From Roseivirga thermotolerans (GTDB taxonomy: Bacteria; Bacteroidota; Bacteroidia; Cytophagales; Cyclobacteriaceae): a stretch of 64,000 bases of DNA. How positions within the stretch are numbered: the stretch's first letter is position 1; every line of letters starts with the position of its first letter. The translations under genes and the position numbers were made by a program. The DNA lies in contig NZ_BNAG01000001.1 in the NCBI RefSeq assembly GCF_014653175.1, forward strand, positions 1,054,001 through 1,118,000, written 5' to 3'. This document shows, piece after piece, positions 24,036 to 27,080 of the stretch. A model generated the notes under the pieces. It did not search any database and had not been told where the DNA came from. It worked only from the letters and a program-made list of their open reading frames with translations.

Positions 24036-24053
24036 CTCACGATATATCGTGAG
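24036..24053. promoter_or_regulatory. 18-bp palindrome at the start of the sigma-54 activator gene
   Basis: CTCACGATATATCGTGAG is a perfect palindrome ending one base before ATG 24054. It shares the GATATWTC core with three sites at 26855-26989. It probably binds the activator's own Fis-type domain for autoregulation. Confidence 0.65.
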
Positions 24054-25925
24054 ATGTCTTTGAATAAAACCATAGCAGATCATCCGCAGCTAGCTCGTTT
24101 TACAGTAGAAAGAGCCTTGGCGGCTATTCTATGGATGGACGAGCAGGGTTGTATTCACTTTGCCAATAAAACAGCACTGGAGCAATACGGCTACAGCTCT
24201 GAAGAATTCAACCGCCTGACCATTTTTGAAATTAACCCCAATTTCGACCGGAAAAAATATGCCATCACCTGGGCCAGGTCAAAACAAGTTCAAAGCCTGA
24301 GGTTTGAGTCGAGCCATTTGCGCAAAGACGGCTCGGAGTTTCCGGTAGAGATATTCGTAAACCACATTGAGTTTGAAGGACACGCGTATAACGTAAGTTT
24401 TATAGTAGATATATCGCAGCGTAAAAGGCATGAGCGATTGATGAAGTCGCTTTCTGAGGCTACAGCCGCAACCTTAGGTACCGATTTTTTTAAGACACTG
24501 GTTGAGCGGGTGTCTATGGCTCTCAATGTGCATATGGTAGTAGTTACGGAATGTACCGACTCCAGCAAATCGAGACTGAGAACCCTGGCCTACTTTAAGG
24601 AGAATGAATTTCGAGAGAATGTAGAATATAATACCGAAGGAACACCTTGCGGTGTAATTATGGAAAGCAAAGAACCGTTGCTTATTGAGCGGGGTACCTA
24701 TAGAAAGTACATTCGCGATACAGGGGTTGAGGGCTACTTTGGAGTTCCTATTATTAACCGTGAGCGAGAGGTTATTGGACACATTGCTCTTTTTAACAAT
24801 AAACCGCTCCTTTTGAGCAATGAGGAACAGGAAATACTCAAGATATTCTCCGACAGGGCTGCTGCAGAAATAGAGCGAAATGTTTATAACAACAGGCTTG
24901 TATTGGCCATGCAAGAGGTGAAGAATCTCAAGGACCGATTGGAGGCTGAGAATGTTTACTTGCAAGAGGAGATACAGGGAGAGTATAATTTTGAAGAAAT
25001 AATTACTCAAAGCGATCGCTTTAAAGCCATCCTAACGACTTGTGAACAGGTGGCCGTAACTGACGCTACAGTACTTATTTTGGGTGAATCAGGCACCGGT
25101 AAAGAACTGCTGGCACGAGCCATCCACAACATAAGCAAACGCAGGAACCGCCCCCTGGTAAAGGTAAACTGTGCAGCATTGCCCGCCAATCTTATCGAAA
25201 GCGAACTGTTTGGTCATGAAAAAGGAGCTTTTACGGGAGCTATTAACCGCAAAATTGGCCGTTTTGAGTTGGCTCACGAAGGCACCTTGTTTTTGGATGA
25301 AATTGGAGAATTGCCGCTTGAGCTCCAATCTAAATTGCTTAGAGCCTTACAAGAAGGTGAGTTTGAGCGGTTGGGAAGTACGGAAACCATAAAAGTAGAC
25401 GTGCGGGTAATTGCGGCTACCAACCGACAGTTGGATAAGGAAGTGGAGGACGGTCACTTCCGTGCCGATTTGTTTTACAGGCTCAACGTGTTTCCGGTAC
25501 ATAGCCTCCCACTTCGTGAACGGAAAGAAGATATTGCACTCCTGGTAAAATACTTTACCCATAAATTTGCCGGCAAACTGGGTAAACGAATCAATAAAAT
25601 ACCCAAGCGCTACCTCAATGCCTTACAGGCCTACGATTGGCCCGGCAACATTCGCGAGTTGGAAAATGTAATTGAGCGGGCTGTCATTCTTTCTCCCGGC
25701 CACCAATTAGAGTTAGGCGATTGGATTCCTAAGCGTGCCCACGCTACCCACAAAGAAGAGTTCGATACGTTGGAAGCTTTTGAGCGCAAGTACATTCTGG
25801 AAGTTTTGCAAAAAACAGCCTGGCGTGTGAGTGGAGAAAAAGGGGCCGCCAAAATTTTGGGAATGAAGCCAACTACTCTTGAAAGCCGCATGAAGAAGCT
25901 TGGAATAAAAAGAGGGCTCGATTAA
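24054..25925 (+). CDS. Sigma-54-dependent activator with PAS and GAF sensor domains
   Basis: A 623-residue enhancer-binding protein. A PAS domain (about residues 15-130: [20 protein letters not shown] ... [11 protein letters not shown]) is followed by a GAF domain (about 150-280) and a short coiled coil ([20 protein letters not shown]). The AAA+ domain has Walker A GESGTGKE near residue 344, the sigma-54-contacting GAFTGA near 391, Walker [11 protein letters not shown] and [13 protein letters not shown] sensor 2 ([10 protein letters not shown]). The C-terminal Fis-type helix-turn-helix is [24 protein letters not shown]. The domain order resembles FhlA/NorR-type activators. There is no receiver domain, so the signal is sensed directly, perhaps by a cofactor or small ligand. 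The start is ATG 24054, next to a palindrome; a TTG at 24024 is a less likely alternative. Confidence 0.93.
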
Positions 25926-26034
25926 GCGTACCGTTCTGAAAGCCAATTGCTTGTCCACTTCAAAAAAAGCAAGGATTGCAATTTCTGCAACCCTTGCCGT
26001 ACTATGCGAAAGCCTTTACCGAAGCTGTTGCCAT

Positions 26035-26850
26035 TTACAATTTGAGTACAATATCGATGGCCGGAAAACCACCCTCAAAATAGAGGAGGTCTACGGTCAC
26101 TTTTTTGGCAATGTAACGCAATCCGCCAGAGATTACCGATGACTCACCCGGCAATAGGTAATTCTCAGTAATAAGTGCCAGGCGACCTGTGAGGCGCGTA
26201 ATTCCTGCAACAGTGATTACTCCGCTATTGTCAATTTCTCCCTGGGCAAAGGCATAACCGGTACCTATGGTAAGCTGATGTTCGTGTGTTCCGTAAGTCA
26301 CCAGGCCGTTTATAGTACCAAGGCTCACATCAGCTATTGAAGATGCAATGGTAAGATAACTTACCGAGGCCGCTACATTGAGTTTAGGGGCCACGGGAAC
26401 TCCGTATTTGGCATTGGCAAAAAGCAGAGGATTACCACTAAAGGTGCTGATTAACTCAAGACCACCCGTAAGGCTTAGCCTATCGGTAACACCGTAGCTC
26501 ACTAAGTTAAAAACACCATAAATGTTTTGGTAGTAACCCTCGCCTTTAGGTAGAGTATAGGCCGATTGTCCTATAAAATATCGGGTAGGGTTTGGGTTTG
26601 GAATTCTCCCTTTCGGGTCTAGCCGAATGATTCGCCTTATTTCGTTTTTCTGAAAGGTTAGCAACCCCAGGCTTTCGCTACGGATGACGATACTTGCATC
26701 ATTTTCAGAAATGAGTTCACCATTGATTTCCGATTTATCCTCCAAATAGATTATGACCATTTGCGGAGACGATTGGCGCGAATCGTCTTGAGCATAGACG
26801 CTAAAAAATGCTGTGCCTAACAGGCAACAGACCAGAATAAATTTGTTCAT
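26035..26850 (-). CDS. Secreted beta-rich protein of unknown function, probably outer membrane
   Basis: A 271-residue protein with a signal peptide (MNKFILVCCLLGTAFFSVYAQ). A short N-terminal domain (MVIIYLEDKSEINGELISE ... LTFQKNEIRRIIRL) resembles a small SH3/LSM-like module often found before barrels. The remainder alternates hydrophobic and polar residues (GVTDRLSLTGGLELISTF, KLNVAASVSYLTIASS, LTIGTGYAFAQGE), consistent with an outer-membrane barrel. I do not recognise a family. It is divergent from the ATP-grasp operon. One GATATWTC palindrome lies 5 bp before its start codon and two more lie about 100 bp upstream. Confidence 0.72.
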   Translation of the reverse strand: MNKFILVCCLLGTAFFSVYAQDDSRQSSPQMVIIYLEDKSEINGELISENDASIVIRSESLGLLTFQKNEIRRIIRLDPKGRIPNPNPTRYFIGQSAYTLPKGEGYYQNIYGVFNLVSYGVTDRLSLTGGLELISTFSGNPLLFANAKYGVPVAPKLNVAASVSYLTIASSIADVSLGTINGLVTYGTHEHQLTIGTGYAFAQGEIDNSGVITVAGITRLTGRLALITENYLLPGESSVISGGLRYIAKKVTVDLLYFEGGFPAIDIVLKL

Positions 26851-26854
26851 TGTT

Positions 26855-26872
26855 TTCCTGATATTTCGTGAG
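26855..26872. promoter_or_regulatory. Palindrome-family site B
   Basis: TTCCTGATATTTCGTGAG has one arm like the site at 26972-26989 and the other like the site at 24036-24053. It lies 5 bp upstream of the secreted-protein start codon. Confidence 0.55.
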
Positions 26873-26952
26873 TATAAAAATGTTATAGACCTTCTCTCTT
26901 CAAAAACACAGCCAAGATATCAATTAAGCCAGAATTTTTTTTGACTATTTTA

Positions 26953-26970
26953 TTCCTGATATTTCATGTA
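26953..26970. promoter_or_regulatory. Palindrome-family site C
   Basis: TTCCTGATATTTCATGTA, an imperfect copy 19 bp (about two helical turns) from site D, as expected for adjacent activator dimers. Confidence 0.55.
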
Positions 26971-26971
26971 A

Positions 26972-26989
26972 TTCCTGATATATCAGGAA
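26972..26989. promoter_or_regulatory. Palindrome-family site D (perfect)
   Basis: TTCCTGATATATCAGGAA, a perfect 18-bp palindrome 78 bp upstream of the -24 GG of a sigma-54-like promoter. This is a normal enhancer distance. Confidence 0.65.
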
Positions 26990-27064
26990 AAAATCAAAGA
27001 CAAATCAATCCTTTTTATTTTTCAATTTACTGAAAATCAGTGTATTATGTGTGTTAAATACAGG

Positions 27065-27080
27065 TTGGCACGTAGATTGT
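27065..27080 (+). promoter_or_regulatory. Sigma-54-type promoter of the ATP-grasp/LysE/Crp operon
   Basis: TTGGCACGTAGATTGT matches the sigma-54 consensus TTGGCACG-N4-TTGC at every fixed position except the last (T for C), with the GG and GT dinucleotides at the required 10-bp spacing. The transcript would start near 27092, leaving a leader of about 100 nt. Confidence 0.6.

Follow-up and report, generated by a model that had tools for sequence, protein, structure and literature searches.

The window (the whole stretch of DNA that was analysed: 64,000 nucleotides of Roseivirga thermotolerans, contig NZ_BNAG01000001.1, positions 1,054,001 to 1,118,000 of the forward strand) was examined around a gene for a predicted sigma-54 activator (ACT) and the operon that lies further along the same strand. 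The operon starts with a gene for an ATP-grasp-like ligase (GRASP), followed by genes for a LysE-type exporter (LysE) and a CRP/FNR-family regulator (CRP). Two genes on the opposite strand flank ACT: one encodes a YHS-domain protein (YHS) and the other (SEC), by our own reading, a protein with a signal-peptide-like start. One palindrome lies at the start of ACT, and three related palindromes, a sigma-54-type promoter and a leader hairpin lie between SEC and GRASP. All coordinates are given in Table 1; genomes (G) and loci (L) are cited by number.

Table 1. Positions of the control elements and genes in the window
Feature	Position	Strand	Remarks
Palindromic operator CTCACGATATATCGTGAG	24036-24053	.	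touches the ACT start codon; putative autoregulation site; read directly
Distal palindrome TTCCTGATATTTCGTGAG	26855-26872	.	192 bp above promoter, 4 bp above SEC ATG
Proximal doublet, first palindrome TTCCTGATATTTCATGTA	26953-26970	.	94 bp above promoter
Proximal doublet, second palindrome TTCCTGATATATCAGGAA	26972-26989	.	75 bp above promoter
Sigma-54-type promoter TTGGCACGTAGATTGT	27065-27080	+	one mismatch to TTGGCACGNNNWTTGC; 75 bp below last palindrome
Leader element: GAC, 7-bp hairpin (27094-27100 with 27106-27112), loop AGACG (27101-27105), GACA	27090-27117	+	
ACT, PAS-GAF-AAA+-HTH_8 sigma-54 activator, FhlA-like	24054-25925	+	Pfam Sigma54_activat, PAS_9, GAF, HTH_8
GRASP, ATP-grasp-like ligase, first gene of operon	27195-28283	+	Pfam TTL, NCBIfam RimK-type matches below cut-off
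LysE-type exporter	28261-28890	+	Pfam LysE 2.1e-15
CRP/FNR-family regulator	28894-29577	+	Pfam HTH_Crp_2 and cNMP_binding
Possible terminator, 14-nt inverted repeat then T-rich tail	29631-29661	+	missed by consensus terminator scan
YHS-domain protein, divergent neighbour in 15/15 loci	23469-23981	-	NCBIfam YHS_seleno_dom 5.2e-36
SEC, divergent gene with signal-peptide-like start	26035-26850	-	in 8/15 loci

A preliminary description of this DNA had claimed four palindromes of one family, and direct reading confirmed them at 24036, 26855, 26953 and 26972, the sites at 24036 and 26972 alone being perfect palindromes. The placement of one palindrome at the activator start codon was also correct: an ATG in the ACT frame, at 24054, comes directly after it. 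A search of the window for the exact 18-mer that allowed as many as 3 mismatches gave one place (0.01 expected). The two doublet sites start 19 bp apart, as described, but the gap between the doublet and the promoter is 75 bp and not 78. The promoter, reported to have a single mismatch to the sigma-54 pattern, was found as such; it has the -24 GG and the -12 G at the fixed spacing, it is conserved, and its -12 base is T, not C. When the host genome (4.2 Mb) was scanned by pattern, with the reversed pattern as control, TTGGCACGNNNWTTGC with one mismatch matched four places including this promoter, against two for the control. An rpoN gene, whose absence the preliminary description had named as a possible refutation, is encoded in the genome (G000:C3, 1.3e-56). 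Separately, a weaker fifth palindrome, TTTACGACTTATCGTAAA, was seen at 38183-38200 within the frame 37283-38479 (14.7 bits against at least 20.9 for the main four).

The GAFTGA motif, already claimed for the activator, was found in the ACT translation, and the AAA+ domain (PF00158, 2.4e-74) and the C-terminal Fis-type helix-turn-helix (HTH; PF02954, 2.1e-08) are those of a sigma-54 enhancer-binding protein. The best NCBIfam model was PRK15429 FhlA. ACT stayed below the cut-offs of the FhlA equivalog (430.9 bits against 830), the NorR equivalog (367 against 476) and the equivalog of NifA, a GAF-type sigma-54 activator (388.5 against 528.85).

The genus sample comprised 19 genomes. The activator matched at E 1e-100 in 16 of them, and orthologous loci were whole in 15, including the window; in G103, the activator is split across two contigs, with the start site, the upper sites, the promoter, the hairpin and CRP visible. 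Gene order was identical in the 15 loci (TANGO2, DinB-like and YHS on one strand; activator, GRASP, LysE and CRP on the other), with SEC between activator and GRASP in eight. The palindrome at the ACT start was present in 16/16 loci (G103 fragment counted), placed from 1 bp inside to 16 bp above the in-frame ATG by our own count; in L187 and L189, its final base is the A of the activator ATG. The distal palindrome was present in 15/15 loci and a proximal site at 73-86 bp (up to 3 mismatches) in 13/15, and L186 and L189 carry a weaker palindrome at the aligned proximal position. In the genus alignment, the promoter (YTGGCAY-N5-TTGT) was conserved in all 15 loci. The sites stand 73-75, 92-94 and 182-192 bp from the promoter in one species set and 85-86, 104 and 216-226 bp in the other; the proximal sites are thus shifted by about 10 bp between the species groups, close to one helical turn. 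Conservation of the palindromes in relatives, which the preliminary description had made a check of its proposal, was therefore found, and their distances to the sigma-54-type promoter, itself conserved, are fixed.

The fifteen leaders have the following in common immediately downstream of the promoter: GAC and a 7-bp stem with the loop AGACG, with GACA as well in 13. Over 13 distinct rows, pairing held in 88 of the 91 cells, and four of the seven pairs had changed on both sides; the paired share and the covariation score were reached by none of 500 shuffles, and slid versions of the hairpin paired at 33 to 57 percent. A 28-column version (12 distinct rows, 84 cells) contained 65 Watson-Crick, 16 G-U and 3 unpaired cells, which fits an RNA better than a DNA palindrome. 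The leader thus has the compensatory changes across relatives that are expected of a structured RNA. A model of the hairpin gave one strong match (37-47 bits) per genome in 16/19 genomes, each at this leader, and a weak match (20.3 bits) at the leader of G105; among the best 150 candidates scored per genome, nothing else exceeded 21.1 bits. Two results weigh against the hairpin: one covariation measure, that of further pair types, was no higher than in shuffles, and the minimum-energy fold of the window's 105-nt leader alone is a different one, with a stability that does not exceed that of shuffles (z -0.56). Rfam was searched with positions 26800-27300, and nothing matched at E 1 or below. 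An upstream reading frame in the leader was considered and rejected, as its ATG at 27088 is not conserved. The covarying hairpin with its invariant AGACG loop, at the predicted 5' end of the operon transcript, would be a new element.

A half-site matrix (half-site about TTCAYGATA) was built from 108 genus half-sites and applied to distant relatives of the activator, as follows: of 80 loci, 6 were dropped because the frame came too close to where the DNA ended, and the remaining 74 were examined from -300 to +60 of the activator start. A score of at least 10 was reached at 22/74 activator starts, against an expectation of 0.96 from random windows of the same loci (18/1382) and of 1.58 from the starts of other frames (9/422). 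Six of these nine control matches are at the Pseudoalteromonas gene that directly follows the activator and are possible targets rather than noise. At a score of at least 15, the counts were 6/74 activator starts and 0/422 other starts. Within the DNA examined, which was short for some loci, none of the 22 site-bearing loci had a match to CRP, GRASP, LysE, YHS or DinB at E 1e-4. The palindrome at distant activator starts, with no CRP match in the DNA examined, indicates that it goes with this kind of activator. In Pseudoalteromonas, a second palindrome was seen just past the activator, some 150 bp upstream of the following gene, which may be a target (L058:7110, L064:7143, L073:7110, L075:7143, L076:7143 and L081:7005). 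Nothing clear as to the ligand was noticed by eye in the frames beside the distant homologs, on which no family search was made.

Natural losses were found within the genus. G107 has YHS and SEC on one contig with no activator between them, and the region above GRASP yielded neither a site nor a promoter nor a hairpin. In G105 (genome 80% complete), the activator is gone, the promoter and hairpin are decayed, and a site-like remnant lies by SEC; relative to G108, 15 of the 52 positions that make up promoter, spacer and hairpin are different, compared with 2 of the 75 that follow immediately. Neither G107 nor G105 has the CRP gene, be it at the locus or, at E 1e-20, anywhere in the genome sequence searched, and GRASP, LysE, SEC and YHS remain where activator and CRP are lost (L243, L244). 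A tree built from four shared proteins (without DinB for G105) placed G107 as sister to G114 (0.999) and G105 in a group with G108 and G102 (1.000). Since G114, G108 and G102 each carry the whole set, two separate losses are indicated. A further genome, G109 (84% complete), is without GRASP, activator and CRP.

In the wider family, GRASP matched at E 1e-40 in 59/98 genomes, two genus members included. Besides JC749, 27 GRASP loci of other genera (L126-L152) were examined over about 1.5 kb on each side: DinB-like genes were found near GRASP in 25, LysE in 17 and YHS in 10, and no locus had the activator. It therefore seems that the control parts were added to a gene set older than themselves.

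The zero-mismatch matches of the motif are concentrated at the locus. All three such places for the pattern YTMMYGAWATWTCRKKAR in the host genome fall here, and exact matches to TTCMYGAWATWTCRKGAA in the 19 genus genomes were at the locus in 10 of 11 cases. With one mismatch, TTCMYGAWATWTCRKGAA gave 43 forward matches against 11 for the control; by our own count 29 were at the locus, and the 14 elsewhere are near the control level, so a genome-wide regulon finds no support. Eleven match loci were inspected for sigma-54-like sequences and genes; L205 among them is the G103 copy of the locus. At L209, off the locus, two sigma-54-like sequences were present, neither placed below the site. At L206 (G104:C2:157116, site L206:1501-1518), an exact off-locus palindrome is followed after about 180 bp by a membrane-protein-like gene, and no sigma-54-like sequence was found there.

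Taken together, these data very probably describe a one-component, FhlA-like sigma-54 activator that acts on its own gene and drives a single operon, GRASP-LysE-CRP. We consider the finding real and this reading well supported by comparison of genomes, from which come the conservation of sites, promoter and hairpin, the tie between palindrome and activator, and the joint loss of the parts. The circuit would work as follows: a signal would release the PAS-GAF activator, which would then bind the 18-bp palindrome; from the doublet and the distal site it would loop onto RNA polymerase-sigma-54 at the promoter; and contact of GAFTGA with sigma-54 would start transcription of GRASP-LysE-CRP from near 27090-27092. 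The transcript may end at the terminator-like repeat downstream of CRP. Its first 25 or so nucleotides would form the hairpin, which probably sets message stability or initiation, and the CRP product may feed back on the operon. The start-codon site most likely lowers the activator's own expression. The autoregulated activator driving one operon, as first proposed, thus gains support from a start site within 16 bp of the in-frame ATG in 16/16 loci and from the presence of the palindrome where distant homologs of the activator start. Two parts are additional to the ordinary circuit, the hairpin and the linked CRP gene, and neither was in the preliminary description.

Several results weigh against the reading of a self-regulating sigma-54 activator. 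In the motif scan that had been proposed as a check, the exact sites of the host genome kept to the locus, but the loose family pattern (up to 3 mismatches) gave 53 genome matches over both strands against 45 for the control, and YTMMYGAWATWTCRKKAR, a tighter pattern, gave 10 forward matches against 8 at 1 mismatch; a loose motif hardly above control speaks against a wide regulon. At L016, off the locus, a one-mismatch promoter-like sequence lies 141 bp from the site with both inside a coding frame, so chance also yields such pairs. The distant relatives are of mixed value: 52 of the 74 are without a site at score 10, and eight of the 22 site-bearing ones are Pseudoalteromonas and hence not independent (the remaining ones include alphaproteobacteria, Nitrospinota and Phycisphaerae). 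Similarity of their HTH to that of the window protein hardly separates the groups (median 48.3 bits with site, 45.8 without), and the matrix was drawn from pattern-selected sites and is biased toward that pattern. Finally, JC749, which has an activator relative, GRASP, LysE and CRP together, showed neither such a site nor a good promoter.

It is very improbable that the palindromes are instead bound by the operon's CRP/FNR-family protein, with the sigma-54 activator a mere neighbour. The joint absence of CRP and activator from G105 and G107 means that, within the genus, the sites correlate with CRP too; but the 22 distant activator relatives carry the palindrome with no CRP match in the DNA examined (some of it short), and CRP as its binder was disfavoured for this reason. 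A role for CRP in feedback, by binding TTGTC-N8-GAC (27077-27092) between the -12 element and the start and so closing the promoter, is a tentative proposal that we hold to be unlikely. Sites of the CooA/NtcA type have a geometry of this kind, TTGTC and GAC are invariant in 15/15 loci, the sole TTGTC-N8-GACAA of the genome is this one in G057, G098 and G101, and CRP is missing where the promoter is lost. The full inverted repeat, however, was not enriched in the genus (38 forward matches against 116 for the reversed control), and the window copy has two mismatches, a class found 25 times in the window against 33.8 in shuffles. As for the activator-start site, it might activate ACT or act in the message as a start-codon hairpin, being a perfect 18-bp palindrome that ends at the ATG and was listed as a stem by the terminator scan. 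Both roles appear quite unlikely: no sigma-54-like sequence with up to 2 mismatches was found above the activator in 16 loci, and the same palindrome also occurs hundreds of bp from the gene to be activated.

The preliminary description had also allowed for the divergent secreted gene as a target, and this part is doubtful. That SEC is a real second target is rather unlikely, even though the distal site stands 4 bp from its ATG in the window, a site-like remnant stands beside it in G105, and TTGG-N8-TTG is found 64-89 bp above the SEC match in 6/8 SEC-bearing loci. This element departs from the sigma-54 pattern at 1 to 4 positions, the best copies being those of L183 and L184; the window copy is the degenerate TTGGCTGTGTTTTTGA at 26901-26916, with 4 mismatches. 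On the other side, 7/15 loci keep the distal site without SEC, L188 and L193 are without the element, SEC survives in both activator-loss species, and G105 keeps the element without the activator. Retention of SEC and its element without the activator speaks for another kind of promoter, and SEC may be a bystander. A more speculative extension of the self-regulating activator model seems improbable on present comparisons: activator, enhancer sites, promoter, hairpin and CRP would together be a single control cassette, removable as a unit, on top of an older YHS/DinB/ATP-grasp/LysE set; the sigma-54 promoter would receive feedback from CRP, and the hairpin with the AGACG loop would be a new regulatory RNA element needed only with the cassette.

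The operon product may be an exported amino-acid conjugate, a suggestion based on the weak ATP-grasp-type matches of GRASP and on LysE. The N-terminus of GRASP is hydrophobic by our own reading. Its structure model, made from two sequences, was too poor for use (mean predicted local distance difference test score 40.8), and the sole match among solved structures was a weak one for the GRASP ligase (E 0.051). No Pfam family was matched by SEC at E 0.001. The TANGO2, DinB-like and YHS genes (22215-23981) accompany GRASP and LysE in this genus. In G057, two small lipoprotein-like genes (L109:3554-3970 and L109:4117-4548) lie between YHS and activator; the first scored 23.8 for a TonB plug domain, just below the cut-off of 23.9.

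A literature search found no paper on this locus or motif. PMC12316311 describes sigma-54 regulation as less explored outside Pseudomonadota. The locus offers a clean test case there, with a new leader hairpin and with natural loss lines as controls: in related species the parts are either all retained or lost together, which makes the predicted circuit testable. The palindrome is also a candidate DNA recognition rule for the FhlA-like HTH_8 subfamily, apparently holding in several phyla, and with such a rule, sequence could reveal which genes orphan activators control.

Compared with known systems, the leader resembles Rfam leader elements in being a structured 5' leader and differs in having no Rfam match. 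In autorepression of the PspF type, the enhancer sites of the activator also cover its own promoter; the circuit of the window differs in having a separate site on the start codon and sensor domains in the activator. NorR is, like ACT, a GAF-type sigma-54 activator, but its site, GT(N)7AC in the table of PMC4987338, is unlike the window palindrome. The closest likeness by NCBIfam model is to FhlA, the formate regulator of enteric bacteria, which has the same layout of AAA+ and HTH_8 with GAF. The FhlA site given in that table, CATTTCGTACGAAATG, shares ATTTCGT with the sites of the window, although by our own reading the half-sites stand in the opposite order. ACT differs further from FhlA in scoring far below its cut-off, in having a PAS domain and in lying where no hydrogenase is among the genes named (22215-31072).

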